Of a stretch of 35,027 nt of DNA, positions 1-33,295 are shown in pieces. Below the pieces are notes generated by a model. The model did not search any database and was not told the DNA's origin. It saw only the letters and a list, made by a program, of their open reading frames with translations. Each line of letters starts with the position of its first letter. The first letter of the stretch is position 1. Position numbers and translations under genes: made by a program. This DNA comes from a virus: positions 1 through 35,027 of the IMG/VR virus record IMGVR_UViG_3300042544_004275; one strand, written 5' to 3'.

Positions 1-3000
1 CAGGGAATTTGAAGCTGCCTGTTTCACCGAATAACTCTTCCTTCACCACCTGAACGTGGTGCTGTTTCTGTTTGTGACGGATGCGGTAAGTGACCCTTCG
101 GCTGGTGTTGCCATCCTCATCCACCGCATAAACATTCAACTCGCCACTGGCTTCGTCCTTCAAGTTGAGCGAAACGTCGGTGGCCTCCTGCACTAAGATC
201 TTCGATAGCGCCTCCTCGGGGGTCTCCTTTCCAAGTGTGTAAATCACTGACTTTGCGCCTTTGGGGATGGCGATGCGGATCTTGGCCCCATCCTCAATTT
301 CCCAAATGTTTCCCTGTACCTTCGTCACGTGATCGGTGGGTGAAATCTCCGGATCTGGAACGAGGGGCTTGATGTTCTCGATGGCGGTTTTTGACTGCTC
401 CCACTTGGCTTTGTAGGCGGCGGTTTGCAGGGAGGTCCAACCACTGACAGCACCTAGACCCCAGGATTTCGGCAGTGCAGTCATCAGCTTGGCGTCGAAT
501 GCGGTGGCCGAGTCTGAAAGAACCGTCAGCAAGCGTTGGGCATCTTCGTGATCGTCGCACCGAAGCGGGTCGCGTTGGTCGGAAGTCAGTGCTTCATACC
601 ACTCCTCGACCGCCTTCTCGCACTCGACCATGTCTCCCTCCTTGCCGTGGACATCGAGAATCGCCGCAGCGACTTCACGTTGGGCCTTCACAAGCCCGCC
701 GTTCAGTTTCTTGACATCGGAGGCAAATGCGGCAGCCCAGGTCTTGGCATCTGCCGCGCCGATGGAATCGACCGGCTCGCCAGCATAGACCTCAGGAAGG
801 CGCTTTAGAAGCACTTCAAACCCATCGGCATGCAGGTCATCCAGCAGTTGTTTGAGGTTGCCCAGGCGCATGCGGTCGGCCACCGGATGAAGCTCCCCTA
901 CCTTCGCTACGGAAGGCAGGCCCTTCCACCACTCCCGGATTGCCTCATGCGCACCAGCCACCGTTCGTAGTTCACCTTGCGCGACAGAAGGCGCGCCGAC
1001 AGCTTTTGCGACTGCATCAATGAACTCGCGCTGGGCGGCCGTAATCTCCCGGACAGCAAGTTCAATCTTGCATGAAGGTTCGCTAACAGCTTTGGCGATG
1101 GCCTCGTAGCTGCCGAGATCACCCGCTTCCGTGTGGGTCGAATCGGTGAAGATCCGGAGGCGTTCTCCGAATGCCCTGACGGCGTGAGCAAGTGCCAGCA
1201 CCAGCATGGTCCCCCCTGCTCCGTAAGGTGCAGCTCGCATCTCGCGTAGAAAATCAGCGAGAACCAAGGATTCGCTGGGACCCAGCCCATCCAACCGGCC
1301 GATCAGTTTCTTGAGAGCCGGAAACTTGGCGTCGATCTTCGCGGGATTACTTTCCACGGCGAACTCGGTGACGGGGCCGTTGTTTCGCAGGCGGATCAAG
1401 GCACCACAACCTGTCAGTAGCACACTTTGAAGATAGCGCTTCTCGCCATGGTTGCCGGCGCTACCATTGTCGATCTGCACCGGCGAATCCGTATCCAACA
1501 GCTCTTCTACCGCTTGCTTGAGCGGGGTGTTCGAGTTCTTCTGCCACTTCTCGTCGTGGATGAAGTTCAGGTCGGGGTGCTTGATCTGGCAACGCTCCTT
1601 GTAGAGTCGTTCGCAGAGCATGTCGGCAGGTTTATGCGGCTGCTGCGGCTTCTCGATCAGAAGCTTGCCGTGTTCTTCGAACCAACTCGCCTGCGACCCG
1701 CTTAAGAGCGAATTCACAACTCCTTTGATGTTCGGCAGGTAGCCGTCGTTCACGCCGTCGTCGAGCATGTCGCGGATTCGGGCCACGGTTTGGGCAGGAT
1801 GCTTGTCGGCTTCTCCGGGTGCGATCAGATGCCGGCAAGCGATGACGCGGCGGAGATCGTCGCGGAAAGGCGTCGGCTCGTGAGGAACGGCAACAAGGAT
1901 GTTACCGGCGGGGATTGTCTTCACCGCGTCGCGCGCCAGCTTCACCTCTCCCTCGTCCTCGCAAAGGGCATAGACCGCGTGACCTTCATACGAAGTGGTG
2001 AACTTCGTAGCAGCCTTGGACGCCTCTTGTTCGAGCTGTGCCCACAGGTCAGGACCCAACTCCCGGCCACGCACAAAAACCCTTTTGAGACGCTTGTCCT
2101 CACTGAAAGCGAGGTTCCAACCATTAGCCGGGAGGAAATCTTCGGCACTCCCCGCCTGTTTCAGCAACTCTGTCACCGTGGCAGCCTTCTCGGTTTCTTC
2201 CGAGTCAGCGAAGTTGTCCACCAGAACCACCGGATCCTGGCCCTCTGACGAGCACAGCTCGTAAGTGTTTGAAGTTTTTCGAAGGTAGAGTGCTCCGGCC
2301 TTCTCCAGATCGCCCAAAAGCTTTTTCACTGCAATCTTCTCGGTGTTGCTGAGCGCATACCGCCCGAACTGGATGTTTTCCAGCGTGGTGGAGATCCCGC
2401 ACAAGGAGTAAATCAGGATGGTTCTCAGCAGTGCCGTGCGGTCATCACTGGGTTCATCAAAGAGTTCCTCCTTCACGCTCTTGCGCAGTGCCTGGAGGCT
2501 GTTCGCGTAGCCATTCACCAAGGTCCGCTGCGTGTCGAGCAGCTCCCGGCTAGAGGGCGACAACTCCTTTTCGAAAAAGGTGAAAAGCTGGTCCACCAGA
2601 TACAGGCGCAGGGCACCATTGGATCCAGCGATCTCGTTCTTGGCGATGAAGTCCGCATACGAGCCAGACTCGGTGACGGCACCCCCGCCGGAGAAGAATG
2701 TGAAAGTGCTCCGAACGTCGGAGCCAATCTCGGAGGAGAGCTTTAGCAGACAGCTCAACGCCATCGGATGCATGCCGTAGATGTCCTCCAGAACCCTCTC
2801 CCGGATTCGGGCGGTGTCGGTGATCCAGGGGAAGAGCTTCAGTGAGACGCACTCAGGTGTGAGCTTGTCGAAGACACCCTCCTTAGGCTTCACCTCGGTC
2901 TTCCATACATCGCTGCCCTTTTCGGTCTCAACGATGGCACCGATGATCTCCTCGATGCCCTCGTTGGCCAGAGGCACCTGGGTGATCCGGGCGTCCATCA

Positions 3001-3943
3001 CCGCAGCCGTCGTCTGGTTGGTGCGCTCGGCGTAGTCCTTGAAGCTCTTGTGGATACAACCCACGAACACGACATTGGCTTCGTGCTGGCAGATGTCCTC
3101 CATGAAAGCCTGCATCACGGCAGTGTCGTATTTCGCGCTCTGCAGCACGGCTGTGCCGAACTCATCGAAGAAAACCGCAAGCCCCTTAAACTTTGTCTTG
3201 AAGTCGTCGCTGCGGATGAGATTTCGGACGATTGAGACTAAGTTGCCGGACTTCGGCTTGAACTCGTCTCCCTGAGCAAGCTGGTGGGCCTCCTGGAATT
3301 GGTTCATGGCCTCGCGCTTGAATCCCTTCAGTCCGGCACGCAGGGCGGCGATGGGAGTGCCTGGAGCCACCTGCTCCAGCGCCTTGACGAAGTCTGCGTA
3401 GAAGTCCCGGACTCCCTTCTTGTCCTTCGCGGCCTTTTCCCACTCTGCCAGCTTCCGCTCCGCTTCGTCGAACTCGGTGAATTTGGCGACATCCACACCG
3501 CGCTCCTCACAGGCCTCAACGATCGCCCGCAGCACCTCGTCCTCAAACTTCCGCCCGGAACCGTAGTCACAGAGCGCCACGAGGAACTGCCCGCCTTTGC
3601 GTACGTTCTTGAGTTGCTTCGCCTTCTCGGCGTCGAGCTTTGTGTAGTTCTCGTAGAAACCCTTCAGGCTAGGGTCATCGCTGCTTTTGCCCAAAACGTT
3701 CGCCAGCATCAGGCAAAGGTGGGATTTACCGGTGCCGTAGCTGCCGCTCAATAGGTAGAACTTTTTGTCGTTCGGCATATAGAGTCCGCGACAAATCCGC
3801 TCCAGGGCGTTGCGGTGGGCTTTGGTGGGGCGATACATCGCCATCCGGCCACTATTTTCGTCCTCCTCACGGAGGGCGCTACGAAGTTGGACGAAGTTTG
3901 CGTAACCTCCGCGGACTTTAACGATTTCTGCAATCTTGGACAT
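1..3943 (-). CDS. BrxC/PglY-like P-loop ATPase, C-terminus cut by window edge
   Basis: The frame is open from the ATG at 3943 to the left edge, giving at least 1314 residues; the end lies outside the window. A Walker A (GSYGTGKS, about residues 67-74) follows the phrase FYLLS, and a Walker B-like FFDEFG sits near residue 260. Size, early P-loop and place beside a PglX-like methylase fit the large ATPases of BREX/Pgl systems (BrxC, PglY), which are thought to act with the methylase in sensing or blocking phage DNA. Family assignment is from motif style and context, not from an alignment; another large AAA-type defence ATPase is possible. It is the last visible gene of the operon, 30 nt after the OLD gene, and further genes may follow to the left. 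Confidence 0.7.
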   Translation of the reverse strand, partial: MSKIAEIVKVRGGYANFVQLRSALREEDENSGRMAMYRPTKAHRNALERICRGLYMPNDKKFYLLSGSYGTGKSHLCLMLANVLGKSSDDPSLKGFYENYTKLDAEKAKQLKNVRKGGQFLVALCDYGSGRKFEDEVLRAIVEACEERGVDVAKFTEFDEAERKLAEWEKAAKDKKGVRDFYADFVKALEQVAPGTPIAALRAGLKGFKREAMNQFQEAHQLAQGDEFKPKSGNLVSIVRNLIRSDDFKTKFKGLAVFFDEFGTAVLQSAKYDTAVMQAFMEDICQHEANVVFVGCIHKSFKDYAERTNQTTAAVMDARITQVPLANEGIEEIIGAIVETEKGSDVWKTEVKPKEGVFDKLTPECVSLKLFPWITDTARIRERVLEDIYGMHPMALSCLLKLSSEIGSDVRSTFTFFSGGGAVTESGSYADFIAKNEIAGSNGALRLYLVDQLFTFFEKELSPSSRELLDTQRTLVNGYANSLQALRKSVKEELFDEPSDDRTALLRTILIYSLCGISTTLENIQFGRYALSNTEKIAVKKLLGDLEKAGALYLRKTSNTYELCSSEGQDPVVLVDNFADSEETEKAATVTELLKQAGSAEDFLPANGWNLAFSEDKRLKRVFVRGRELGPDLWAQLEQEASKAATKFTTSYEGHAVYALCEDEGEVKLARDAVKTIPAGNILVAVPHEPTPFRDDLRRVIACRHLIAPGEADKHPAQTVARIRDMLDDGVNDGYLPNIKGVVNSLLSGSQASWFEEHGKLLIEKPQQPHKPADMLCERLYKERCQIKHPDLNFIHDEKWQKNSNTPLKQAVEELLDTDSPVQIDNGSAGNHGEKRYLQSVLLTGCGALIRLRNNGPVTEFAVESNPAKIDAKFPALKKLIGRLDGLGPSESLVLADFLREMRAAPYGAGGTMLVLALAHAVRAFGERLRIFTDSTHTEAGDLGSYEAIAKAVSEPSCKIELAVREITAAQREFIDAVAKAVGAPSVAQGELRTVAGAHEAIREWWKGLPSVAKVGELHPVADRMRLGNLKQLLDDLHADGFEVLLKRLPEVYAGEPVDSIGAADAKTWAAAFASDVKKLNGGLVKAQREVAAAILDVHGKEGDMVECEKAVEEWYEALTSDQRDPLRCDDHEDAQRLLTVLSDSATAFDAKLMTALPKSWGLGAVSGWTSLQTAAYKAKWEQSKTAIENIKPLVPDPEISPTDHVTKVQGNIWEIEDGAKIRIAIPKGAKSVIYTLGKETPEEALSKILVQEATDVSLNLKDEASGELNVYAVDEDGNTSRRVTYRIRHKQKQHHVQVVKEELFGETGSFKFP

Positions 3944-3973
3944 AGGAAGAAGTAATATGGAGATCTAACACGC

Positions 3974-5953
3974 CTACTGGGCGAACTTCTGATTGACGGC
4001 TTTGAATGCTGCCTCAAATCGCCTGAGTGTCGCTTCGGATAGCGTCGCTTCGTGCTGTGAAGAGACCAGCATCCTCGCGGGACGATAGTGATTGAATCTG
4101 TCACGGCCCATGAGCCTATTGATTTGTGGCAAAATCCGCTGGCCCGCCTGAATCTGGTCGAGCCGGATTGTCACGACTTCTCCGCTGAATGCAGCGTTGA
4201 AAAGATCAAGATACTCCTGCGGCTCGAAGAGGTCTTCGAGATCGGCAACATCTCCGACGCTCGCAAACTTGTCGAAAAACATGATTTGCTTCTCGCGAAT
4301 GATTTTCTCGCTGATCAGATCTTCGAGCCGTCGCTTACCTTTTTGGTCGGTGAATGTATCCAACAAGCAGGCGATATTCAGCTTCGAACCTCTAAGCAGT
4401 GAGACGAAAGACGTCACCTTGTCGAGCCCGCCTGCGGGAACTATGGTGACTGAATCGTGAAGCCCTTCCATTCCCTTTGCAGCCAGAACGGCGGACAAGT
4501 GCGTCAGAATTACCAAATCTGCCGCCCCTTCCACGATCAGGTTGTTTCTTGAGACGAACAGGTTCTGGGCGATGTCATACCCCAAGGCGGCCTGTAGCGG
4601 GAAAAGAGTGTCGGCGTCCCGTTCCTGGATGGAATCTGAAACAACACTGCCTTCCGGACCGTCGTAAATGGTTCGCACGCGATGGAGCCCATGGCTTTCG
4701 ACCATGAAGGGCGAATGGGTGGAATACAGAATCTGATAGTTATCCGAAAGACCTTCGATGTAACGAAGGAGGTCCGCTTGAGCGGAAGCATGGAGATTGA
4801 GTCCAGGCTCATCAAGGAGCAGAATGAAATTCGAGTTCTTGTCTTCCTGAATCTTACTGAACCACACAAGGAATGAAAAAAACCAGTTGAATCCTTTGCT
4901 TCGCTTGCCCAATGGCAAGGTCATCATGTGCTTGGTATTTTCGACACGAATATTGAGAAACGGGCGAACTTCGCCATTGACATTGGCGCTTTCAATCATG
5001 AAGCGAACCCGAAGTTCGGTGTTGGTCTTCCAGTATTCAAAAAGTTCTTGGGTGATGAAATTGGCGGTGGCTTCTAGTTCAGCCACGTAACTCTCAAAAC
5101 GGTCGTTCTGAACCAGTTCTTTAATGTCGATTTCAGCGAGTTCAAAGAGCGCAGCTGCGGTCTGCTCGTGCTCCGTCTCACGCTTTCCGGACTGAAGTTT
5201 TTGAATATCAACACGCGATGGCAGTTCGTAGTATTCGTCGTAATAGAGAAACCTTGGCACGAGCGGCGCAATGAACTTCGAATAGATGTAGTTCGCGATG
5301 GGCTCATCAATCAGCGGCTCCTTTAGTCGAAACTGGTCCAGATCTGCCAACAGTCTGAGTATGCTGGGCTCAGGGATTGGTGTGGGGGCAGCCCCTGCGG
5401 GTGGGGCTGCTGCCGCAGCCTGAGCTTGGGCGTGCTCCTGCTTCGCTTGGGTTTTGAGTTCGACCGCTGCCTCCATTGAGACAAGCCCCCTAAGTTTCGC
5501 TGCGTCGGCAGGATCGACTCCATCGTGCTTCGACAAGAAATGTTCAATGAACTTAGAAAAATTGACCTCGATGCCTTCAATCCAAATCGCGTTATTAAAG
5601 TCAGTCGTGATCGAAAAATCGGGCTCTTTGAGCACATCCTTCCCCACCTCCGATTCGATTTGCTCGATTACCGATTCCGAAATGCGGTAATGACTTGTAA
5701 CCACGTCCTCGATTTCACCCGACTTCTGATATTTCTTGAGTTCTTTCCTTGGGTAGTCGTCAGTTGTTGAGAACCGGAACGCAGGGTCCGCGCTGAAATA
5801 ATTGGTTTTGGCAATTGCTTGAAGAACGGCTGTCTTGCCGGACTCATTCTTCCCAACCAAGACTGTAACGCGATCATCCACATCGAAGCGCTGTGGCTTT
5901 TCGATGCACTTGTATTTGTGGATTTCGACTGCGATTAGGTGGATGCTTTTCAT
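3974..5953 (-). CDS. OLD-family ATPase with C-terminal TOPRIM nuclease domain
   Basis: 659 residues. An ABC/SMC-type ATPase is split around an inserted region: Walker A GKNESGKT (34-41), Walker B LLLDEPG (378-384) and H-loop STHSPF (411-416). An Ala/Pro/Gln-rich linker lies at about 172-196. A TOPRIM-like domain follows, with VEGAAD (474-479), an Asp in LLDTFTD (531-537) and DLEDLF (571-576). OLD proteins are DNA nucleases found alone or in defence operons such as Gabija. The ATG overlaps the stop of the PglX-like gene by 4 nt, so translation is probably coupled. An OLD nuclease inside a BREX-like operon is unusual and may supply the cutting activity that classical BREX lacks; that role is inference. 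Confidence 0.85.
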   Translation of the reverse strand: MKSIHLIAVEIHKYKCIEKPQRFDVDDRVTVLVGKNESGKTAVLQAIAKTNYFSADPAFRFSTTDDYPRKELKKYQKSGEIEDVVTSHYRISESVIEQIESEVGKDVLKEPDFSITTDFNNAIWIEGIEVNFSKFIEHFLSKHDGVDPADAAKLRGLVSMEAAVELKTQAKQEHAQAQAAAAAPPAGAAPTPIPEPSILRLLADLDQFRLKEPLIDEPIANYIYSKFIAPLVPRFLYYDEYYELPSRVDIQKLQSGKRETEHEQTAAALFELAEIDIKELVQNDRFESYVAELEATANFITQELFEYWKTNTELRVRFMIESANVNGEVRPFLNIRVENTKHMMTLPLGKRSKGFNWFFSFLVWFSKIQEDKNSNFILLLDEPGLNLHASAQADLLRYIEGLSDNYQILYSTHSPFMVESHGLHRVRTIYDGPEGSVVSDSIQERDADTLFPLQAALGYDIAQNLFVSRNNLIVEGAADLVILTHLSAVLAAKGMEGLHDSVTIVPAGGLDKVTSFVSLLRGSKLNIACLLDTFTDQKGKRRLEDLISEKIIREKQIMFFDKFASVGDVADLEDLFEPQEYLDLFNAAFSGEVVTIRLDQIQAGQRILPQINRLMGRDRFNHYRPARMLVSSQHEATLSEATLRRFEAAFKAVNQKFAQ

Positions 5954-8900
5954 GGCTGGAATCGGTCAAATTCTTCGAGGGCTTTGCGCTTGGATTGGTA
6001 TTCGCCGAAGGCGGCGAGTTCTTTGCGGCGGAGGACGGGGAAGGTGTCGAGGATGTAGGCGAATTCGTCGCGGGTGAGGCCGTAGAGGTGGGCGATGAGG
6101 GCGTCGAGTTCGGCGCGGGTCTGGGCGCGGTCGCCGTCGTCGCGGCGGTCGGGCTTGCGGTCGTGCAAGCCGCAGGCCGGGGACCAGGTGGAGGTGATGC
6201 TAGCATAGCTTTCAGCCAGACGCTCGCGCAGCGCCCGCTCATGCGCCGGGCCGTAGGCAGGCGGCGGCGTAGCCAGGGCGTCGAGCGTGTCCGCCGGAAT
6301 CTGCGGGAAAACTTCCTCCCAGAGGTCAGCGTATTCGTCGGTGGTGCAGACGAGGCGTAGGGCGAGGGCGACGACGGGCCAGAAGTAGGTTGGGTCCCGC
6401 GGGTCGCCGCAGCCAAGGCGGGGGACGGGGAGGGTTTCGACAATATGCATGTCGAGCTGGAGCGTGATCTTGAAACGAACGATGAAGTCGCAAGACACGG
6501 AATTAAGGACTCCGCACAGAAATAGAGTCTGAGCGGCCGTAATTGATTCAATAGGCTCGCCGGTCTCCTGATGCGGAACGAATCTTCTCACAATTACGCA
6601 CTTGTCGGTGCAAGCTACCTTAGCTGGCACCACTGTAGCAATCATTGAGCGAATATCCGTGCTTCGAGCAACTCGGCGAAAGCCTAACCGGTATTGGAAG
6701 CAGTCCAAAATTTTAACGGGCCTATTTTTGCGAACAAGTTGTCGCCAGTATCCAGTTGCCTCATTCTCCCGGAGTGTCTTCTCTGTGATCCATGCGCGGG
6801 GAGTCGCAAATTGATCATCGAATTGAAAGATCATCTTTCCCTCAAAAACGGGACGACCATCGCCCGATTCGTTGAAAAGCTTCCGGTCGCTACTGATATT
6901 GTATTCCTGGGATTGCTTAAAGCTCCATGCATGCGGGATGTCTTCAGAAAGCAGGGGATTCCCGCAGTAAATCTTATCAGCGATCAAGACGTCCACTGAG
7001 GTATTTACTTCAATGATGCTCAGTGAATTCGGCGCGAAACGGTTGACCTGAGCAAGCGATAGAGAAGGGGCATGTTCTTCGATATATGGAAGCCGACGCG
7101 GATCATGCTGCATGAAGGCACATTTAAAGGAAGTTGTGGTCCCTCCGGCCCGCGCTACAAGGGTGATGATTTTGAAACTGTTGTGAACTGCCGTGAAAAT
7201 CTCCGGATGACGATTCTCGAAACAGTAAAGCGTCGTGATGTCTGTATTGTCGAAAAAGTAACGACGAAGCCCCAACGCACTCGCATCAGTATAGAATCCG
7301 CTTGGGCATAAAATACCGATAAAACCTCCAGACCTGAGAGCCTGTATGAAGCGTTCTAGAAAGGCGCGGTATAGATCAATTTTGCCCTGCGTGAGGCATT
7401 TGTATGCCGTTGGTTCTTTGAAGAAGGCGCTGCCGAAGGTGAAAAGCTCCTGATACTCGGCCCATTTCTCGTCTAGTGCTGGATGCTGAGCATGTAGTTC
7501 ACGAATTCGTCTAGCTGCCTTATCTCCTTCCAGTGAGCGGAATCCGAGATCGTAATCAGAGTAGAACTCTTGCGTCTTCGGCTCCATCACATCCCATGGC
7601 GGATTTCCGACAGTCGCGCTAAAGCCGGCATTTTCCTTACCGCCGAACACATCGGGGAACTCCAGTGGCCAATGGAAAAAATTGTGACGATCACGCAGAG
7701 CACAGACACGCTGCCATACGGAGACAAGATCAAGCCGCAGTTCTCGCTCAGACTTCCCATTATGGAAATGGCTTAGTAAATCGGCATAATCCATGGGCTG
7801 GATACTGCTATCCATGAGATAGGCCGTGTGTAGATCAGCAAGTGGACCAAAGGCTTGGTGCAATTCAGTGCTGGCTTCCTCGAAGGTTGATCGCTGCCGG
7901 TCCGTGTCGTCCTCAGCAAGCTCGTTGATGGCCGCGATGCTTTCCGCAGCCCCATGGATACTTGTGGCTCGGGATTCGGATTTGAGGAAACCAAACGTTT
8001 TCTGAGCGCTACGGGCTTCCTCTAGAATTTTCTTAGTGTCTTTCCTGCGTTCAGGGATGGATTTTAGGGCAGCGAGGTCCCGCAGTCCTATGAGACTATT
8101 CCCGCAGCGCAGGTGGTGGTCGAGGAAGGTGAGCTTGTGGTCTCGGGCGAAGCAATTGAGCCAGAGGGCGAGCTTGGCAAGATTGACGGCGAGCGGATTG
8201 AGGTCGGCCCCGTAGAGGCAGTGGCGGGTGATGAGACGCCGCCAGTGGTTGGGCGCGCCAGTGATGCCGGAGGGCGCGCCGGGCAACGGCTCGATTCGGG
8301 CGAGCAGTCCAGTAACGAAGTCTGCCATGAGGTTGGCGGCGGCGACGAGGAAGTGGCCGCTGCCCATGGCGAGATCGCAGACCTTGTAGGTGAGCACCTC
8401 GCGTTTCACGAAGTCGTGGATCAACTCCTCGGCGGCGCGTAGGGCACCACGGCGGGCGGCCTCGTCGAAACCGGCGCGGGTTTGTTCGAGGTATTCTCGG
8501 AAGCGGCTTTCGCATGTGGCCTCCCACCGCTCGCGCAGGGGTTGGATGACGGCTTTTTCCACCAGGAAGCGGACCAGTGATTCCGGCGTATAGTAGGAGC
8601 CGGACTGTTTCCGCTCCAGGGCGGTCTCGCCGAAGAAGATGTCGCCCGCCTTGATCCGGATGTCGCCATCCTGGGCGCGTTGGCCGGCGGCGGGCAGGGT
8701 TTGCCAGCTATTCTTGGTGCGGCGGCGCAGGTAGTCGGTATCGGCCAGGCGCACCTTGTATTCGAGGATTGCCTCATACATTTCGCCGAGGTGGCGGACC
8801 TCCAGGTCCTGGTAGGGAATGGCGTATTCGGTGCCCGCCTCCGCATCGAGCGGATCGACGAAGGCGAGCCAGTAGAGCGCGTGCCAGAGGAAGTCATTGC

Positions 8901-10065
8901 GCAGGCGGTGGCGGCCGAGGAATTTCTCCTCTTGGTCGTCGAACAGCCCGCCATTGTAGCCCATGATGCCGTAGGTAATGTCGCCCTCGTTGACGGCCTG
9001 GACCAAGCCCTTAAGGTGGTGCCAGAGTTCGTAGCCGTGGTGGTCGTTGCGTTCGTTCCAGCGGAACTTGCGGGCTTCCTTGCAGAGAGCGCGGATCGAG
9101 TGCGGCGCGTAGATGTCCGCGTGGCGTTCCTCGGACGGCAGAAGCTTGCGGGCCTCGGCGTAAAACAGGAAGAGGCAGCGGTAGAGCAACTTGACCGAGC
9201 TCTCAAACACCTCGCGGCGCTCGTCCTCAGTGTAGGCGTCGCCGGTGCGCGGGGTGTCGGCGATGAAGCCATTGCAGATGTAGCGCAGCACGCCATCGAC
9301 CTGGCCGAGCAGCGGGGACTTCACCCGCGCTTCGAGCACGGCTTCGGAGACCTCGCCATCGAGGTCGAGACGCGAGAGGTAGATGCCGGCCTTGCGTTCC
9401 TTTTCAGCGTCGGTTTCGATGGCCTCCTCTTCCTCCTCCTCGCCGGATTCGGCGCGCTTCTGGCGTTTCACTTTTAGGCCGAGGGCCTTGAACTGCCTGG
9501 CCTTTTCCTTGTCGTAGTCATCACGTTCAACCGGGACGAAGCAGTCGGCATGGAAGAAGCGCTCGAAGAGGGCGTAGGCGATTTCGTCCTGGGCGGTGAG
9601 GGCTGTGGCGAGATCGAGTTCCACATGGTCCTCGAAGGGCTTGGCCGATTTGGTCGAGTAGAGCCGCCAGGTGGCACCATTGGTGAGGATGCCCCAGTTG
9701 AGTTTCTTTTCGCGCAGGGCGGTGACGAGTTTGGCGGGCCAGAAGCGGCCGACCGACTGGTCGTCGAGGTCGGCATCGGGTTCGACGAGGTAGAGCAGGG
9801 CGACGCTGTTTTGAAAGCTGTAGTCGTCGTAGAGCGAGTGGAGACCGCGGCCGTAAGTCACGCCGGAGAGTTCCTGGATGGTGAAGCCGAGGTTGCCGAG
9901 CGCGGCCTTGACGAAGGATTTCCAAAGAGTGGAGGCACCCGCCGCATCCCGGCGCTGCCAACTCTGGCTGAGGGTGACCAACCGTCCTTGGGCATCGTCC
10001 GGGCATGCGATGTCCTCTTGGACGGAATCAAGAAAGATGGTGCTGAAGAGACCGGCGTTATTCAT
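5950..10065 (-). CDS. PglX-like adenine-N6 DNA methyltransferase (possibly type IIG-like)
   Basis: 1371 residues. The N-terminal part carries WGILTNGATWRLY (124-136), which recalls the N-terminal nuclease-like regions of type I/IIG restriction enzymes. An acidic linker lies at about 207-220. The methylase core has SGSYYTP (488-494), motif I DLAMGSGHF (564-572), GADLNP (619-624) and the catalytic NPPW (821-824), the gamma-class amino-methyltransferase set seen in PglX and Eco57I-type enzymes. The C-terminal roughly 500 residues should hold target recognition. The DNA coding for about residues 660-1210 is visibly AT-richer than its flanks, as expected for an exchanged recognition module. It is longer than typical PglX (about 1200 residues). 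The start overlaps the preceding gene by 4 nt. Confidence 0.88.
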   Translation of the reverse strand: MNNAGLFSTIFLDSVQEDIACPDDAQGRLVTLSQSWQRRDAAGASTLWKSFVKAALGNLGFTIQELSGVTYGRGLHSLYDDYSFQNSVALLYLVEPDADLDDQSVGRFWPAKLVTALREKKLNWGILTNGATWRLYSTKSAKPFEDHVELDLATALTAQDEIAYALFERFFHADCFVPVERDDYDKEKARQFKALGLKVKRQKRAESGEEEEEEAIETDAEKERKAGIYLSRLDLDGEVSEAVLEARVKSPLLGQVDGVLRYICNGFIADTPRTGDAYTEDERREVFESSVKLLYRCLFLFYAEARKLLPSEERHADIYAPHSIRALCKEARKFRWNERNDHHGYELWHHLKGLVQAVNEGDITYGIMGYNGGLFDDQEEKFLGRHRLRNDFLWHALYWLAFVDPLDAEAGTEYAIPYQDLEVRHLGEMYEAILEYKVRLADTDYLRRRTKNSWQTLPAAGQRAQDGDIRIKAGDIFFGETALERKQSGSYYTPESLVRFLVEKAVIQPLRERWEATCESRFREYLEQTRAGFDEAARRGALRAAEELIHDFVKREVLTYKVCDLAMGSGHFLVAAANLMADFVTGLLARIEPLPGAPSGITGAPNHWRRLITRHCLYGADLNPLAVNLAKLALWLNCFARDHKLTFLDHHLRCGNSLIGLRDLAALKSIPERRKDTKKILEEARSAQKTFGFLKSESRATSIHGAAESIAAINELAEDDTDRQRSTFEEASTELHQAFGPLADLHTAYLMDSSIQPMDYADLLSHFHNGKSERELRLDLVSVWQRVCALRDRHNFFHWPLEFPDVFGGKENAGFSATVGNPPWDVMEPKTQEFYSDYDLGFRSLEGDKAARRIRELHAQHPALDEKWAEYQELFTFGSAFFKEPTAYKCLTQGKIDLYRAFLERFIQALRSGGFIGILCPSGFYTDASALGLRRYFFDNTDITTLYCFENRHPEIFTAVHNSFKIITLVARAGGTTTSFKCAFMQHDPRRLPYIEEHAPSLSLAQVNRFAPNSLSIIEVNTSVDVLIADKIYCGNPLLSEDIPHAWSFKQSQEYNISSDRKLFNESGDGRPVFEGKMIFQFDDQFATPRAWITEKTLRENEATGYWRQLVRKNRPVKILDCFQYRLGFRRVARSTDIRSMIATVVPAKVACTDKCVIVRRFVPHQETGEPIESITAAQTLFLCGVLNSVSCDFIVRFKITLQLDMHIVETLPVPRLGCGDPRDPTYFWPVVALALRLVCTTDEYADLWEEVFPQIPADTLDALATPPPAYGPAHERALRERLAESYASITSTWSPACGLHDRKPDRRDDGDRAQTRAELDALIAHLYGLTRDEFAYILDTFPVLRRKELAAFGEYQSKRKALEEFDRFQP

Positions 10066-10535
10066 TCGAGAGCGAGGGTTTCGGAAAGGTGTAGGACGAC
10101 GCGGGTGCCGGGAAATCGCTGGGGCTGGAACGCGGCGAATACCGGATCCTCGTGGGTGATGAGGATGAAGGCGGGCGATTGCTGCCAGAATTCGATTTTC
10201 TCGCAGAGGTCCTTCTTGGCGTGGCGGGGTTCGCTCTGGCTGAGCCAGGCCCCGAGAAGAAACTCAATGCCGCTGACGACGAGAAGTGGGGTTTGCCGAT
10301 GTTCGGCGATTAGGACCAGAAGTTTGTCCAACGAGAAACAGGAAAGGCCGGATAGTAGGGATTCGTCCTCGCGGAAGCGGCAGAGGACATCGAGGTGAGT
10401 GGCACCGAGGATCTGCGCAAGCCTGGCCGCATAGGCATGCTGGCCGGCGAGGTCCGGGCTGAGCAGGAGCGCGGCCCGGTTGCGTCTTTCGACGAGCTGG
10501 GTAGCGAATTGGCGCATGTCGATGAGGTCGGGCAT
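10062..10535 (-). CDS. BrxF-like small ATPase-fold protein
   Basis: 157 residues. The layout resembles a small P-loop protein: a hydrophobic strand AALLLSPDLAG where Walker A should be (about 17-27), a Walker B-like strand LLVVSGIEFLL (about 84-94) and a later ILITHEDP strand. The Walker A lacks the GxxGK[ST] lysine, so ATP binding is doubtful. BrxF, the small P-loop protein of BREX type 3, has similar length and sits near brxC and pglX; here it lies directly upstream of the PglX-like gene with a 4-nt overlap. The BrxF call is inference from size, fold pattern and position. The start is 2 nt after the previous stop. Confidence 0.5.
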   Translation of the reverse strand: MPDLIDMRQFATQLVERRNRAALLLSPDLAGQHAYAARLAQILGATHLDVLCRFREDESLLSGLSCFSLDKLLVLIAEHRQTPLLVVSGIEFLLGAWLSQSEPRHAKKDLCEKIEFWQQSPAFILITHEDPVFAAFQPQRFPGTRVVLHLSETLALE

Positions 10536-10537
10536 GG

Positions 10538-11860
10538 TCAGAGCAGAAGTCGTTCGCCAGCGGGTTCGTCCAGCTTGGATTTGGGTTCGGGTTCGCGGTT
10601 CTCGTAGCCGGCAGCGAGGAATTCCAGCGGCTCGAAGCCATCGACCAAGCGGACCTGATCCAGACCGTGTCGCACCTCGTAGCGGATCCAGCCCTTTTGG
10701 TGGAGGGTCTCAACCATCTGTCGCATGCTGGAGGCATCGAGGCCGAAGACCCGGCCCGGAGAACCGGGTGCGGCCTGGATTTCCTCGAAGGAGACCAGCC
10801 GCGCCTCGTGCTGGTTGCCTATCCAATAGATCATCGCGGCCAGCGACAGAGGCTGGAGAGCGGTGTAGCGGCGCAGGGCGAGGGTGTTATCGGGCGTTTC
10901 GTAGATGAGATTGAGCTTCTTGAAGTTCTTGACGGTATAGGCATCGACGACGAAGCGGACCTCGTAGGCGACATGGTGCATCAAGGAGCCCTGGCTGTAT
11001 TGGCCGGCCAGTTTTTCGCGCAACCAAGTGCACCAACCGGCCTGTGTGGTCGGTTTTTCATAGGGCAGAACCTCGTTGAAGATGGTGTGCCAGATGAGAT
11101 TGCGCGGTTTGCCCGCCCCGAGGAAATGGCAGAACTCCAAGGTCAATGTGGAATCAAGAAACAGGTCATGCTGATGCACGAGCCTGCCGAAGGGGCTGAG
11201 CAGTGCAGTGAGCGGAGTCAGAATCCCCATGGCGACGGCGATGCTGGTCAGGCTCTCCACCTGCCCTTCCGACAGCCCGGTGCCCTCCATCAGATCGCGG
11301 CGGACAAACTTGCGCACATCCGGGTGTTCCACGATGTAGGTCAGGAGTCGGGCGGTTTGGGTGGCATCGAGAGAGTAGCAATTGCTGACTTGGAGCTTGG
11401 GAGCATCCGAGCGCTTGGGGGCCTTGCTGGCAGGCTTGGACACCATCGGCGATGTGGTCAAAGCGGGCGAATTCTCGGGCGTGCCTTCCGTGTCAGGTGT
11501 TTCATTTTCCTCAGGAGGATCATCCGATGCCTGAGGAGGTGCCTCGGGCGATACAGGGTTCTCGGCTTGTTGACCGGCAAGGGCATCCGTGAGCTTCAAA
11601 AGCACGGCCGAGCTTTCCTTGATGCCTGGAACTTTCTGCAAATCGGCCACGGAGGCGGCAAGGACCGATGAAGCACTCCCAAATCTCGCGAGCAGGGCCT
11701 CCGCCAGCGGGCGGACATCCCTACGAGGAATCGAGTAGGTGAGCAGCAACTCAAGCAACGAGGTCTCGTCCGTGGCCGAGGCATCACCAGCGAGAAACTT
11801 GGCACGCAGTCGCTCCCGGTGGCCGGAGCTTTCTGGAATTGGTGCTGTTGTGTCGCTCAT
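10538..11860 (-). CDS. Protein with RadC-type N-terminal helix-hairpin-helix region; rest unrecognised
   Basis: 440 residues from the ATG at 11860; a TTG at 11896 would add 12 residues, but the ATG lies just before the recognisable domain. Residues 10-85 (HRERLRAKF, ELLLTYSIPRRDVRPLAEAL, VPGIKESSAVLLK) match the N-terminal UPF0758 region of RadC. The RadC JAB-type metalloprotease domain (HxH...D) is absent. After a Pro/Glu/Thr-rich linker (about 87-140) comes a roughly 290-residue globular part with FGRLVHQHDLF and FLGAGKPRN, which vaguely recalls DUF4007-type proteins of DNA-modification systems. Function is unknown; DNA binding or scaffolding within the defence complex is plausible. Confidence 0.7.
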   Translation of the reverse strand: MSDTTAPIPESSGHRERLRAKFLAGDASATDETSLLELLLTYSIPRRDVRPLAEALLARFGSASSVLAASVADLQKVPGIKESSAVLLKLTDALAGQQAENPVSPEAPPQASDDPPEENETPDTEGTPENSPALTTSPMVSKPASKAPKRSDAPKLQVSNCYSLDATQTARLLTYIVEHPDVRKFVRRDLMEGTGLSEGQVESLTSIAVAMGILTPLTALLSPFGRLVHQHDLFLDSTLTLEFCHFLGAGKPRNLIWHTIFNEVLPYEKPTTQAGWCTWLREKLAGQYSQGSLMHHVAYEVRFVVDAYTVKNFKKLNLIYETPDNTLALRRYTALQPLSLAAMIYWIGNQHEARLVSFEEIQAAPGSPGRVFGLDASSMRQMVETLHQKGWIRYEVRHGLDQVRLVDGFEPLEFLAAGYENREPEPKSKLDEPAGERLLL

Positions 11861-11919
11861 GTGGTGATTATCGAGGCTAAGAAAAGGGTGGGACAAATAC
11901 GGGGGCAGGGTGTGAAAAA

Positions 11920-12987
11920 CTAAGAATTCTCGTCAGGAAACTGGAATTCGATCTGTTGTTGGGCGTCGTCGGGGGCATCCACGAGTTTGAGGCTGGCAAC
12001 TTTCATCAGCCGGGCTCGGCCGCCGGCGTCGCGCTCGACCCGTCCGCGGACCTCGACCCGGTGATTGAGCCACTTCGAGGCGATCCGGTCGGCGACCTTC
12101 GGGCCGTAGATGCACCGTAGGTCGGTGACGAAGCCGCCCTCGATGCCGCGGACCTCGAATCGCTTGTCGTCAAGGTCGGTTTCCCGGACGACACCGGTGA
12201 TCGTGATGACCTCGGTTCGCTTGACGGGGGTGGCGAGGATGTGGCGCACCGTCTGACGGCTGTCCTTGGTGAGGGGTTTGATGTCAGCGGCACGGACTCC
12301 CCCGCCTGCGATGGTGACCGCGTTGATGCCGTGGGACCGGCCGGACGGGGCAAGCTCCCGGACCGCGATGAGGGCGGAATCGCGCAGCTTCGGATCGGTG
12401 ATGGTCTGCTTCACCTCCTCCTCGACCGCCGCCTCGCTGTCGAGTTCCGAGAGCGAGAAACTGACCTGCTTGATCGCCGCCACGGCACTGACGACCGCCT
12501 GGTAGAGCGGGTCGTTTGCGTTGAGCACCGTGTCTTCGGGGCGTGGGAGCGAGAACCCGAATCGGACGGTGCCGTTGTGGACCAGAGAGCTGAAGCCAAG
12601 CTCCATCTCCTCGGGCATGTGAAATGGCTCTCCGCTCTGGGGATCGCGGACGCCGGCCACCGCCTTGGTGACCTGGGCCACGTTCTTGCGGACCTTGGCG
12701 AAAGTCGAGGTGACGATGTTGAGCTTCGGGTGGGCGATCTGGGTGGCGGGCCCGCGCAATTCGACGGTGAGGTCGGATTCGTCGAGCATCTTTGCCAGCG
12801 GCAGCTCGTTGACGTAGAGTTCCCGTAGCCACTGGAACTGGTCAGCCGCCATGTCCTGGAAGAAGGCGGGATCGGCGTTGCCGTGGAGCTTGACCCACTC
12901 GTGGGCGGCGGCGATCTGCTCGATGAGGTCCCGCGCCTTGCGGTCCACCAACTGTTGCCAGGGAAGGTTGTCGCCGGGTGGAATCAT
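11920..12987 (-). CDS. Unrecognised operon protein with C-terminal OB-fold-like domain
   Basis: 355 residues, no family recognised. The N-terminal two thirds is a mixed helix/strand region (LPWQQLVDRKARDLIEQI near the start, a charged helix EAAVEEEVKQT about two thirds along). Residues about 255-345 show alternating strands (EVITITGVVRETDLDD, NHRVEVRGRVERD, RLMKVASLKLVD) typical of an OB fold, so nucleic-acid or partner binding is likely. No signal peptide or membrane segment. The start overlaps the stop of the nucleotidyltransferase-like gene by 4 nt, and 59 nt separate its stop from the next gene. It belongs to the operon by position only; a specificity or adaptor role is a guess. Confidence 0.65.
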   Translation of the reverse strand: MIPPGDNLPWQQLVDRKARDLIEQIAAAHEWVKLHGNADPAFFQDMAADQFQWLRELYVNELPLAKMLDESDLTVELRGPATQIAHPKLNIVTSTFAKVRKNVAQVTKAVAGVRDPQSGEPFHMPEEMELGFSSLVHNGTVRFGFSLPRPEDTVLNANDPLYQAVVSAVAAIKQVSFSLSELDSEAAVEEEVKQTITDPKLRDSALIAVRELAPSGRSHGINAVTIAGGGVRAADIKPLTKDSRQTVRHILATPVKRTEVITITGVVRETDLDDKRFEVRGIEGGFVTDLRCIYGPKVADRIASKWLNHRVEVRGRVERDAGGRARLMKVASLKLVDAPDDAQQQIEFQFPDENS

Positions 12988-13457
12988 AGTTTCAGGCGGA
13001 TGATGCCCTTGCGAAGAGCCTTGATGTCGTTGCCGAAGCGCCAGGCTTCTTCGGCTTTCACATTCTGATACCAGTCGAAGTAATCCTTGGCATTCAGCAG
13101 GCCAGGCACGGCAACGCGCAACGTCACCTTGTAGAGATCGACAAACTCACGCTTCAACCGGGCGCTCACGAGCGTTTTCAGGAATCCGGATTTCGCACCT
13201 TCAAAGTCGCGTGCCTGCAAAATCACATCGATGTTGCGACAACCTTCCCATGTGGTGATGAAGCTGCCGTCAAGGTAGAGCGTCACCGCCATGTCAGGGA
13301 TAAACTCTTGGAGTCGCTGCAAGAACTGGTTGAAGCGATCCAGCAGTTTCGCCCGCTCGCCGGACGACGCGAACATGCCCCGGACATCATCCAACGACAA
13401 GTCGTGGATGCCCTCGGGCAACACTCCTCCGTCAATGATGGATGGGACGCGGCGCAT
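12984..13457 (-). CDS. DUF6932-like nucleotidyltransferase-fold protein
   Basis: 157 residues. It opens with GVLPEGIHDLSLDDVRGMF, the usual opening of DUF6932-type proteins, then YLDGSFITTWEGCRNIDVIL, in which the GS and the downstream Asp correspond to the GSx(n)DxD centre of minimal nucleotidyltransferases. Only one Asp (NIDVIL) is clear where active members have D-x-D, so it may bind nucleotides without catalysis. Such proteins occur in toxin-antitoxin and defence loci. It starts 3 nt after the previous stop and overlaps the next gene by 4 nt. An effector or regulator role within the defence operon is inference. Confidence 0.6.
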   Translation of the reverse strand: MRRVPSIIDGGVLPEGIHDLSLDDVRGMFASSGERAKLLDRFNQFLQRLQEFIPDMAVTLYLDGSFITTWEGCRNIDVILQARDFEGAKSGFLKTLVSARLKREFVDLYKVTLRVAVPGLLNAKDYFDWYQNVKAEEAWRFGNDIKALRKGIIRLKL

Positions 13458-13460
13458 GGA

Positions 13461-14081
13461 TCAGGAAGCGTGTGGAAAGTCTTTACGCTCCGGGACCGGA
13501 TCGGTTTTCTCCTGATCTAACAATGCTTCCTCAAGCTCGTCCACGCCCGGTTGGGCCAGCGCGGCCAGGAACTTGGCCATCTCGTTCAGGTCGCAGGTGC
13601 GGAGGTTCTCGATTCCGGCGGTCTCGAACTGCCGGAAGCGCTCCTTTTCAGCGTCGGCGATTTCAGGGGGATAGGTCACGATGATCTTCGTGAGAGGGGA
13701 GATGAACGAGATCTTCTGCATCGCGCTCAGAAGCTGGTATTCAAGGTGGCGCTCACGCGGGAAGCGGGACCGGGCCTCGATCACCACCTGAAGGCTGGGA
13801 ACTTCGAAATCAAAGGCGTCCGATTCCTGCCCGAGCCGACCGCCGTAAGGCTCAATGATCTTGAGGATCTGCGCCTCCAGGTCGTGCAGGGTCCTGCGGG
13901 ACTCGGCCATCGAGCGGTCACGCTCGATCAGGGCCGTGACGTAGCCGCTGAAGTTGCCTCCGTAGAGATTGTCGGCGCGCTGCGACGCGAAGTCGTAGAG
14001 CGCCTGGTCCGTGAAATTCACGGATTTGACGCGGCGCTCCAGTGGTTTGTCCTGCCCGGCAGGTGTGGGGATCTCGTTCAT
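13461..14081 (-). CDS. RHH-like DNA-binding protein with possible degenerate nuclease domain
   Basis: 206 residues, first gene of the minus-strand operon. Residues about 17-54 (VNFTDQALYDFASQRA, NFSGYVTALIERD) follow the strand-helix-helix pattern of ribbon-helix-helix repressors. The rest shows a strand with VVIEARSRFPRERHLEYQLL, a KIIVTYP strand and further helices, a layout like a PD-(D/E)xK fold in which ExK reads EAR, so probably inactive. As first gene beside the control region it is a good candidate for autoregulation of the operon. The C-terminal tail is acidic and charged. Fold assignments are by eye and tentative. Confidence 0.6.
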   Translation of the reverse strand: MNEIPTPAGQDKPLERRVKSVNFTDQALYDFASQRADNLYGGNFSGYVTALIERDRSMAESRRTLHDLEAQILKIIEPYGGRLGQESDAFDFEVPSLQVVIEARSRFPRERHLEYQLLSAMQKISFISPLTKIIVTYPPEIADAEKERFRQFETAGIENLRTCDLNEMAKFLAALAQPGVDELEEALLDQEKTDPVPERKDFPHAS

Positions 14082-14222
14082 AACGTGTGAACTGGCGGTG
14101 AATGTAAGAGGTCAGCCTATTAGGTGCAAGTAGGAATTTGCGACCGGGTCCGATTTTCCAGTTGTCTGGTTCCGGCGTATGACATAGAGGTCCTCTCAGA
14201 CACGAACTGAATCACCCAGCCG
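14082..14222. promoter_or_regulatory. Divergent control region with AGAGGTC boxes
   Basis: These 141 bp separate the minus-strand defence-like operon from the plus-strand phage genes. AGAGGTC occurs at 14107-14113 and again at 14186-14192; the second copy is part of an 11-bp dyad, AGAGG-t-CCTCT (14186-14196). A weak minus-strand promoter is possible: TTGCAC (14124-14129 complement), 17 bp, TACATT (14101-14106 complement); the first AGAGGTC box would lie in its spacer. Both flanking genes encode RHH-like proteins, which often bind such short repeats. Sites are seen directly; promoter and operator roles are inference. Confidence 0.4.
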
Positions 14223-14441
14223 ATGAAGACCAGTCCCAAGATGCCAACCGCCAAACGAACCCCCAAGCGTAGCGCGACCACCGCCGCAAACCGTGGAATT
14301 CCAACGACTTTTTGGATCCAAGCCGAGGATCTCAAGCACCTGAAGCAGTTCGCGGCCGAGCACCAGCTTTCTGCCTCGAACGTCATCAACCGGGCGCTCC
14401 GCCGCTTCCTCGCCGATGGAAACCCCTTTTTTCGCCCCTGA
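14223..14441 (+). CDS. Small ribbon-helix-helix-like protein
   Basis: 72 residues. After a basic N-terminal tail (KRTPKRSATTAANR), FWIQAEDLKHLKQFAAEHQL and SASNVINRALRRFL form the strand-helix-helix pattern of CopG/Arc-type DNA-binding proteins. It is the first plus-strand gene, divergent from the defence-like operon, and 29 nt upstream of the Sak4-like gene, so it may regulate the replication block. An in-frame ATG at 14241 would give a 66-residue form. No Shine-Dalgarno sequence is seen. An RHH antitoxin without a visible toxin partner is the alternative. Confidence 0.65.
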   Translation: MKTSPKMPTAKRTPKRSATTAANRGIPTTFWIQAEDLKHLKQFAAEHQLSASNVINRALRRFLADGNPFFRP

Positions 14442-14442
14442 G

Positions 14443-14460
14443 TCATACAAATCATACACA
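14443..14460 (+). repeat. Tandem 9-nt direct repeat TCATACAAA/TCATACACA
   Basis: Two adjacent 9-nt units differ by one base and lie between the stop of the RHH gene and the ATG at 14471. The hexamer TCATAC also appears inverted at 14177-14182, upstream of the RHH gene. Tandem short boxes are typical RHH operators, so this may be an autoregulatory site; that use is inference. Confidence 0.35.
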
Positions 14461-14470
14461 CTGATTCACA

Positions 14471-15535
14471 ATGAATCCACAGACCACCAACACAGCCGCC
14501 CGTTCCCTGGCGATCCGCCGGGGGAAGATCACCCGACCGCAGAAGGTCGTCATTTATGGCCCGGAGGGCGTCGGTAAGACGACGCTGGCCGGTCAGACAC
14601 CGGAACCCGTCTTCCTCGACACCGAAGGCGGCACCCACCACCTCGACGTGGTCCGCTTCGACTCCGCGGCCACCTGGGAGGAGATCACCACCGCCGTGGC
14701 CCAGCTTGCGTCAACGCAGCACGGATTCCGGACGCTGGTCATTGACACGGCCGACTGGCTGGAAAAGCGGCTCGCCGAGCACCTGTGCCGCAAGGCGAGC
14801 AAGGAGAGCATCGAGGAATTCGGCTACGGAAAGGGCTGGGTCATCCTGGCCGAGGAGTTCGCCCGCTTCCTCTCCTCGCTGGAGGCGCTGGTCGCCCGCG
14901 GGATGCACGTCGTGTTCCTGGCACACGCCACGGTGCGCAAGTTCGAGGCCCCGGACCAGGCGGGCAGCTACGACCGCTTCGAGTTGAAGCTGTCGAAGCA
15001 GGTCGCTCCCCTGCTCAAGGAATGGGCCGACGTAGTCCTGTTCGCGACCTACGTCACCCGGACGGTCGAAAAGGACAGCGGCAAGCTGCGCGGCGTGGGC
15101 GGCAAGGAGCGGGTGCTCTTCGCCAACCACACGGCGGCCTTCGACGCCAAGAACCGCCACGGGTTGCCGGACAAACTTCCGTTCGCCGTCGAGGCCCTGG
15201 CCCCGGTGTTCGGCGCGGCGGCGGAGTCGGGGGGCTCCGTCGCCGCCAAGCCGGAAGCCACGGCTCCGGCTGCATCTCCCGCCCCGGCGGAAAAGGTACC
15301 GGCCACCACCCTGACCGACCGGATCTTCGCCGCCTTCCAGAACATCGCCGACATGGCCGATGTGGTTGATTTCCTAGTCGCCCGCGGCCAGCTCAAGTTC
15401 ACCGCCGAAGGGCCGCTGGAGTCCATCGACAACCTCGACCCGGACTATGCGGCCCGGATGCTGGCCGAGCCGAAGCGCTTCGTCGCCGCCGTCAACGAGT
15501 GGGCTGCCGCGAACCGTAAGGAGGTGGCGCCATGA
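14471..15535 (+). CDS. Sak4-like phage single-strand-annealing ATPase (AAA_24)
   Basis: 354 residues. Walker A GPEGVGKTT (30-38) near the N-terminus, LDTEGG (49-54), Walker B LVIDTAD (89-95) and VFLAHATVRKF mark the phage nucleotide-binding AAA_24 family, to which the RecA-like recombinase Sak4 belongs. Sak4 proteins pair homologous DNA strands together with a cognate SSB. After an Ala/Pro linker (about 257-278) a C-terminal helical region of about 75 residues follows. The stop overlaps the DUF2800 gene by 4 nt, and an SSB-like gene is two genes downstream, a standard phage recombination set. Confidence 0.82.
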   Translation: MNPQTTNTAARSLAIRRGKITRPQKVVIYGPEGVGKTTLAGQTPEPVFLDTEGGTHHLDVVRFDSAATWEEITTAVAQLASTQHGFRTLVIDTADWLEKRLAEHLCRKASKESIEEFGYGKGWVILAEEFARFLSSLEALVARGMHVVFLAHATVRKFEAPDQAGSYDRFELKLSKQVAPLLKEWADVVLFATYVTRTVEKDSGKLRGVGGKERVLFANHTAAFDAKNRHGLPDKLPFAVEALAPVFGAAAESGGSVAAKPEATAPAASPAPAEKVPATTLTDRIFAAFQNIADMADVVDFLVARGQLKFTAEGPLESIDNLDPDYAARMLAEPKRFVAAVNEWAAANRKEVAP

Positions 15536-16530: not shown

Positions 16531-16536
16531 ACCACC

Positions 16537-17254: not shown

Positions 17255-17270
17255 ACCTGTCACAACGAAG

Positions 17271-18791: not shown

Positions 18792-18805
18792 CTTCCGACT
18801 ACTTC

Positions 18806-20797: not shown

Positions 20798-20840
20798 ACC
20801 CGCCATTTGCCCCCTGTTTGAACCCGCGTTTTGGTGCCTG
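20793..20840 (+). repeat. Two 24-bp imperfect tandem repeats
   Basis: Both units begin TTTGAACCCGC and end CCTG or equivalent, with scattered differences in the middle. The first unit overlaps the last codons of the primase-helicase gene. Iteron-like use as replication-protein binding sites is inference; two copies are fewer than most iteron arrays have. Confidence 0.5.
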
Positions 20841-22468: not shown

Positions 22469-22474
22469 TCCGCC

Positions 22475-32698: not shown

Positions 32699-33295
32699 GT
32701 GGATCAGAAGGAACTTTCACCTGAAGTCGCGGGCAAGATCCTCGACGCCGACTTCCAGAACATCGTCAAGAAGGTCGCGGCGGGCAAACCGCTCACCGTG
32801 GCCGAGCGGGCGCGTATCGAATCCCGGGCGGCCGGCAGCGCGGAAACGCTCGCTTACACCAAGACGCTCGTGGAACTCGCCGCCGTGCTTGGGGTGTCCC
32901 GCCGCACGCTCTCGACCTGGCAGAAGATGGACGGTGCGCCCAAGGCACTGTCCAACGGACTCTGGCCGGTGGCCGACTGGCGGGAATTTGTTCGGCTCCG
33001 CGGGCTGAATGCCGGCCGCGTGCCGGTCGGCAATGACGAGGCGCTCAAGGCCCGCAAGCTGCTGGCTGAGGTGGAAGAGCGGGAGCTGCGCATCGCCGTC
33101 AAGAAGGGCGAATACGTCGCGCTCACCAAAGTCCGCGAGGAATGGATCGGCCTGGTCGCCCAGGCGACCTCCATCCTGCGCGCCAAGTTTGAAAACGAGC
33201 TGCCGCCCGTTCTTTCGGGTCTCGACGCCACCGGCATCCAGCGGGAATGCCGCCGCGCCATTGATGAAGTCCTGCGCTGCCTCCACGAATCATGA
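32699..33295 (+). CDS. Phage terminase small subunit-like DNA-binding protein
   Basis: 198 residues, GTG start chosen because the repeated hairpin ends there and no in-frame ATG lies nearby. Residues about 57-100 (LAAVLGVSRRTLSTWQKMDG, APKALSNGLWPVADWREFVR) form a Nu1-type winged HTH that recognises the packaging site. A charged coiled helix follows (KARKLLAEVEERELRIAVKK), then YVALTKVREEW, as in lambda Nu1-like small subunits. The stop overlaps the terminase large subunit ATG by 4 nt, the normal arrangement. Confidence 0.8.
   Translation: MDQKELSPEVAGKILDADFQNIVKKVAAGKPLTVAERARIESRAAGSAETLAYTKTLVELAAVLGVSRRTLSTWQKMDGAPKALSNGLWPVADWREFVRLRGLNAGRVPVGNDEALKARKLLAEVEERELRIAVKKGEYVALTKVREEWIGLVAQATSILRAKFENELPPVLSGLDATGIQRECRRAIDEVLRCLHES

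Follow-up and report, generated by a model that had tools for sequence, protein, structure and literature searches.

A probable methylating relative of BREX type 4 as putative cargo of a temperate tailed phage

What kind of defence system is encoded at the left end of the virus contig IMGVR_UViG_3300042544_004275, and does it belong to the phage whose genes adjoin it? The whole IMG/VR record was analysed (35,027 bases, referred to as the window). Eight co-directional open reading frames (ORFs), g1 to g8, run on the minus strand from 14081 to 2, as listed in a first-pass annotation that was based on the sequence alone, and the contig end truncates the last of them, brxC. Adjacent ORFs overlap by 4 nt at three of the seven junctions (g2/g3, g5/g6 and g6/g7), the others being gaps of ~2-60 nt, so that the mention of "mostly 4-nt overlaps" was slightly overstated. 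That annotation took the operon for a bacteriophage exclusion (BREX) system of type 3 with four or five additional subunits, perhaps an undescribed variant or hybrid. Instead, the operon is likely a BREX-4 relative that methylates DNA and travels as cargo of a temperate tailed phage. Gene content, gene order, motifs and phylogeny argue for a methylating BREX-4 relative, while all of the activities discussed below are inferred from published work on the PglZ and BrxL of BREX-1 and from a survey of BREX systems (PMC12839542).

The operon and its bacterial relatives

The operon is BREX-related, as first annotated. Gene g8 (2..3943) encodes the N-terminal 1314 aa of a BrxC/SspC-type AAA+ ATPase, open at the contig end (PADLOC SspC 2e-29, BrxC 1e-10); its Walker A (GSYGTGKS) and FFDEF motifs are intact, and the full BrxC of the relatives measures 1345-1371 aa. 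Gene g4 (10538..11860), which likely starts at the ATG at 11860 (440 aa) within an ORF open from a TTG at 11896 (452 aa), joins a UPF0758_N helix-hairpin-helix domain (Pfam PF20582, 5e-5) to a DUF4007 domain (PF13182, 1e-13) of the SspB/BrxP-C type (PADLOC SspB 5e-10, BrxP 3e-4). The RadC-like extra of the first-pass annotation does exist as a RadC-type N-terminal domain, but it is part of this DUF4007 protein, whose DUF4007 had been overlooked. Between these genes lie g5 (10062..10535; 157 aa), a small protein occupying the BrxB/BrxF position; g6 (5950..10065; 1371 aa), an N6-adenine DNA methylase resembling type IIG, DrmMI and PglX enzymes (Pfam Eco57I 7e-20; PADLOC DrmMI 6e-72, IIG 2e-71), in which ~480 residues lie N-terminal to the catalytic domain; and g7, considered below. 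Searches of solved structures yielded no useful sequence match to the DUF4007 protein or BrxC.

The genes also occur together elsewhere, as the first-pass annotation proposed to check. A module of DUF4007, small BrxF-like protein, adenine methylase, BrxC, PglZ and BrxL is conserved in five bacterial loci, called hybrid loci here: those of the uncultured bin-1020 (L002), Desulfoferrobacter suflitae (L016 and L003), G362 (L026), G663 (L028 and L029) and the plasmid pIAD-21 of an Abditibacteriota bacterium (L025). G362 and G663, of the same phylum as D. suflitae, were found by searching 289 and 395 genomes of two phyla, and pIAD-21 by a plasmid search in which it was the only hybrid. A class-level genome search added G724, where BrxC-PglZ-BrxL alone is visible, the contig ending there. 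The system is rare, with three further strong matches in ~700 genomes around the two starting ones. DUF4007 matches in Desulfobacterota outside the hybrids proved on inspection to be mostly Ssp, as did L150. Among viral contigs, no relatives of the BrxC were found, and the only relative of the helix-hairpin-helix-DUF4007 protein was in a near-identical record.

L002, D. suflitae, G362 and G663 share the gene order DUF4007, g5, methylase, a slot of variable content, BrxC, PglZ and BrxL, with which the window agrees as far as its contig reaches; on pIAD-21 it is rearranged to methylase, DUF4007, g5, BrxC, PglZ and BrxL. In all complete relatives pglZ lies directly 3' of brxC and is followed by brxL, and on this gene order the PglZ and BrxL of the window are predicted to follow immediately outside the left end of the contig. 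Of the pglZ and helicase that were to be sought leftward, the relatives thus provide the former immediately after brxC, but no BrxHII-like helicase is found among their core genes, brxL standing there instead. Insertion sequences interrupt both the methylase gene and pglZ in D. suflitae.

The g8 product is 69% identical to BrxC of L002, D. suflitae BrxC standing at 48%, and Walker A and B are kept across the hybrid BrxC proteins. The methylase motifs D-x-AMGSGHF (DLAMGSGHF in g6) and NPPW/NPPY are retained in the relatives, and hybrid PglZ retains the D, P-S/T-x-T, DHG and HGG..EE motifs. The helix-hairpin-helix domain is absent from the DUF4007 protein of pIAD-21 and, as read, from that of G663. 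In D. suflitae (L016:15191-16696) and G663 (L029:986-2503) a gene for an RtcR-like sigma-54 activator is located upstream of the operon, which suggests that these operons may be controlled by an RNA-damage signal, as proposed for CoCoNuTs (PMC11090510).

This recurrence bears on the possibility that a IIG-like methylase and an OLD nuclease are unrelated neighbours of a BREX-4/Ssp-like gene set and do not act jointly with it. Defence genes habitually cluster, and the top PADLOC models of the methylase are DrmMI and type IIG enzymes, which it resembles in sequence and in possessing a IIG-type N-terminal block. In the alignment, however, this block (WGILTNG.WRLY) reads LVEPD or similar, and at the sequence level no E-x-K is seen in it in any of the six aligned sequences; no other DISARM gene is present; and the fixed partners are BREX proteins. 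Methylase, g5 and DUF4007 accompany BrxC in six diverged loci even though identity drops to ~30%, and PglZ-BrxL is also kept wherever the sequence extends. A chance assembly of neighbours is therefore very unlikely.

Affinities of the core

Which BREX core does the methylase accompany? The hybrid proteins were compared with sulfur-type BREX-4 references from Methanosphaera (L153), Thermomicrobium (L154), Pseudanabaena (L156) and G740 (L168), with Ssp of Treponema and of Desulfobacterota genomes, and with BREX-1 of Escherichia coli HS (L152). The BrxC profile gives its strongest match to Ssp (9e-46), then to BREX-4 (2e-27), and no significant match to E. coli BREX-1, whose BrxC is likewise dissimilar by BLAST (E 0.13). 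The hybrid DUF4007 profile behaves in the same manner (Ssp 6e-21, BREX-4 4e-15) and does not match BrxA, while the PglZ profile favours BREX-4 (3.5e-18) over BREX-1 (3e-7). In trees, the hybrid BrxC proteins form a single clade (support 100/100), and for PglZ and for BrxL, hybrids and BREX-4 are together separated from BREX-1 (100/100). The BREX-4 PglZ model is the top NCBIfam PglZ model, below its cut-off, in all four hybrids tested. These comparisons assign the DUF4007 protein and BrxC of the module to the BREX-4/Ssp kind, and for its PglZ and BrxL they point to BREX-4.

The likeness to BREX type 4 thus comprises DUF4007, an SspC-like BrxC, BREX-4-like PglZ and BrxL, and a shared gene order; two BREX-4 copies also hold a gene of 142-166 aa between DUF4007 and BrxC. 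On the Thermomicrobium roseum plasmid (L154:1004-16567) an Ssp locus is directly followed by such a BREX-4 variant, in which the gene in that position encodes 166 aa. The differences are equally clear. In BREX-4, alone among the subtypes, sulfur-marking machinery is described as taking the place of the methylase (PMC12839542), and the PAPS-reductase motif SGGxDS (SGGKDS) is present in all four sulfur-type references, whereas an ORF with SGGxDS was sought in all hybrid loci and none was found; they hold an adenine methylase instead, and an exchangeable gene between it and BrxC. From Ssp (SspB-SspC-SspD), with which they share the DUF4007 and BrxC/SspC homologues, the hybrids differ in lacking an SspD-like PAPS-reductase and in having PglZ, BrxL and methylase. 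With BREX type 1 they share an adenine methylase accompanied by BrxC, PglZ and BrxL, but not the BrxA and BrxB genes.

Most hybrid BrxL proteins have a C-terminal extension. In L002 and D. suflitae it is a phospholipase-D-like (MIT_C) domain, and four of the proteins (L002, D. suflitae, G362 and G663) carry the motif HxRx4D, an HRD variant, which the BrxL of pIAD-21 lacks. A phospholipase-D-like (HKD) C-terminus has been called type-1-specific and absent from type 4, this HRD variant being reported for type-1 BrxL-HKD (PMC12839542); the same HKD/HRD nuclease is found on some type-1 BrxL proteins, while type-4 BrxL has no C-terminal extension.

For g5, the BrxF model NF033453 gives no match, nor does any other family, and its profile finds no significant match among the small BREX-4 genes or BrxB. 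Orthologues are present in five loci; the one on pIAD-21 retains a Walker A (GPPLSGKS) and a VVDE motif, and the Walker A lysine is lost in all the others. By these motifs, g5 probably encodes a degenerate P-loop NTPase that stands where BrxB or BrxF would, a pattern which would fit an inactive STAND module (BrxB/BrxF). An AlphaFold model built from two sequences was unusable (predicted local distance difference test score, pLDDT, 44).

In light of these affinities, a type 3 BREX carrying additional subunits is scarcely credible. The small BrxF-like gene, BrxC and adenine methylase of the operon, the PglZ of its relatives and weak matches of hybrid PglZ to the BREX-3 PglZ model would all suit it. 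In BREX-3, however, the N-terminal lead of the BrxXI methylase is described as short and BrxL as absent (PMC12839542), whereas the hybrid methylase has its long lead and an N-terminus unlike that of BrxXI; the relatives' core is without BrxHII, has BrxL after PglZ, and has DUF4007 where a separate BrxA would stand; and the BREX-4 model ranks ahead of the BREX-3 one. The type 3 assignment was accordingly abandoned, and what survives of the first-pass annotation includes its suspicion of an undescribed mixture, here a BREX-4/Ssp-like core with an adenine methylase.

Several points weigh against a methylating BREX-4 relative carried as phage cargo. Support for the hybrid group is moderate for PglZ (82/84) and BrxL (74/77), and long branches blur the relation of hybrids to individual BREX-4 lineages. 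The hybrid PglZ scores, 17-44 of 140 bits, fall far under the curated BREX-4 cut-off. The identity of g5 with BrxF could not be demonstrated by model, profile or structure. Since the contig ends before pglZ and brxL are reached, their presence in the window copy is an extrapolation; likewise, the contig stops short of the prophage's left attachment site, and the cargo status of the operon is drawn from the relatives described below.

No description of a methylase with a BREX-4 core was found in the open-access literature, supplementary tables excluded. PAPS-reductase is absent in 11% of 457 BREX-4 taxa in a published survey (PMC12839542), and because of this some hybrids may be listed there unremarked.

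An exchangeable gene and a proposed mechanism

The g7 gene (3974..5953; 659 aa) between methylase and BrxC encodes an OLD-family ATPase-TOPRIM nuclease (Pfam AAA_15 3e-21, OLD-like_TOPRIM 3e-5; PADLOC Old 5e-25, also GajA), which upholds the earlier view of an OLD nuclease as an addition to the core. The relatives hold other genes at this position: GmrSD_N, HEPN and DUF2971 in L002, a DUF5615 PIN-like protein in D. suflitae, Schlafen AlbA_2 with HATPase in G362, and an IS200-like ORF in G663, with nothing comparable on pIAD-21. The slot is one position on a constant core occupied by an exchangeable gene, mostly for a nuclease. OLD/TOPRIM, HEPN, PIN and Schlafen are listed classes of backup suicidal effectors (PMC12839542), and the slot offers a natural series of such effectors on a constant core.

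The likeliest mechanism for the methylating BREX-4 relative is as follows. The methylase, together with DUF4007 and BrxC, which would scan DNA and provide the scaffold, would mark adenines at one recognition site in the DNA of the lysogen. Unmarked DNA of an incoming phage would be engaged by the same methylase-DUF4007-BrxC complex and stopped by PglZ acting with BrxL; in BREX-1, PglZ is a metal-dependent nuclease (PMC12205998) and BrxL an AAA+ DNA-binding motor (PMC10164562), and BrxL here mostly bears the HxRx4D motif of a phospholipase-D-like nuclease at its C-terminus. The slot gene, OLD in the window and HEPN, PIN-like or Schlafen elsewhere, would serve as a second-line suicidal effector were the first line to be blocked. 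Carried by a prophage, the operon would guard the lysogen against rival phages.

The same core with a methylase is found in several phyla, on one plasmid and in one phage, which suggests that the self-marking chemistry of BREX is swappable. The odds are even for the broader proposal that this is a further BREX type, in which a DUF4007-BrxC-PglZ-BrxL core may use either phosphorothioate or N6-methyladenine as its self-mark, two chemically unrelated modifications whose modules were exchanged during evolution, with the DUF4007 protein as the adaptor that couples core to methylase and a suicide effector as plug-in. A clade that joins this core to a methylase makes it testable whether the restriction core recognises the mark as a chemical group or senses no more than what state the modification complex is in.

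A phage arm that carries defence systems

To the right of the operon lies a phage early region, the first gene of which, for an AAA_24 ATPase (14471..15535, plus strand; PF13479 2e-57), marks the phage side; a gene for the large subunit of a gpA-type terminase (33292..35025, plus strand; PF05876 2e-38) runs off the right end. No promoter-like site was found 5' of g1, and an ORF at 14641-14120 (173 aa) without family match (Pfam, PADLOC, NCBIfam) was not counted as a gene. The window contains no integrase and no serine recombinase. The independent record G685 is identical to window positions 11070-25532 and differs from the right end of the window at one base in 1958 (99.95% identical); from the terminase it continues with genes that look by eye like portal and tape-measure genes, and it has a tyrosine integrase near its end. 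A tRNA-Ser gene (L117:4873-4962) borders the integrase in the relative G690, and the 3' end of this tRNA is the probable attachment site.

The AAA_24 protein has 105 relatives in viral contigs, and in at least 16 of the 28 related contigs having at least 2.5 kb to its left a recognisable defence gene is found there (L031-L069). These include type I and type III restriction-modification (RM) genes, DISARM DrmD (L036), BREX-1 BrxA/BrxB (L034 and L043), prokaryotic Argonaute (L042), a cytosine (C5) methylase (L045) and an MkoA-like protein (L052), among others. The left arm of this temperate phage family is thus a hotspot for large defence systems. It recalls the hotspots of P2-like phages and P4 satellites in that the defence cargo varies at a constant site within a family of temperate phages, but those hold short systems, BREX and type I RM being reported absent (PMC9122126), whereas the arm described here holds genes of BREX, DISARM and type I and III RM; large multi-gene systems, and not just short ones, travel as prophage cargo.

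The first three genes of the window operon belong with the phage. They are g1 (13461..14081; 206 aa), without family match in Pfam, PADLOC or NCBIfam; g2 (12984..13457; 157 aa), nucleotidyltransferase-like as first annotated, of the DUF6932 family (PF22014 9e-17; PADLOC PDC-M63A 2e-11); and g3 (11920..12987; 355 aa), a possible OB-fold protein in which the fold was not confirmed, there being no Pfam match and a weak one to PADLOC PDC-M32A. This triad adjoins AAA_24 in the window and in L030, L032, L034, L056 and L061, and beyond it lie the hybrid operon (window and L030), BrxA-BrxB (L034) or, by eye, the start of a phospholipase-D-helicase-like system (L056). Because the triad stays beside the phage gene while the cargo differs, g1-g3 are taken as phage-linked rather than as BREX subunits, and the bacterial hybrid loci lack them. 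Of the additional subunits, four or five in the first-pass annotation, one is consequently left in the window, the OLD nuclease.

The same observations bear on whether the operon could be host chromosome adjoining a prophage, or part of a chimeric contig. No attachment site or integrase is seen at the left end of the window, and the hybrid relatives reside in bacterial chromosomes and one plasmid. Nevertheless, a second record links g1-g4 to the same phage genes, and in five further contigs g1-g3 keep their position next to the phage gene although the cargo varies. Moreover, G693 (L114, G693:36000-55999) contains two prophages of the window's phage family in tandem. A type I RM locus there separates the early genes of one prophage from the integrase of its neighbour, which places the cargo inside the element. 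A chromosomal or chimeric origin is therefore unlikely, and carriage by the phage is preferred.

Of the triad, g1 has an N-terminus that resembles, by eye, a ribbon-helix-helix, and its copies are 77-85% identical in four phage contigs; a nuclease function for it was considered and rejected, its structure model (pLDDT 61) having no significant fold match. An alternative to the triad is a pair of ~380-aa proteins of no Pfam family, which stands between phage genes and many defence systems (L035:6382-8683, L031:1040-3263, L043, L045, L054, L064 and others), often with Xre and ImmA genes. Elsewhere in the window, an amidoligase gene (Amidoligase_2, 7e-36) lies on the minus strand at 24237-25535 inside the phage early region, and two consecutive ParB-N-domain genes at 28844-31218 are followed by a SAM-dependent methyltransferase gene and the terminase gene.

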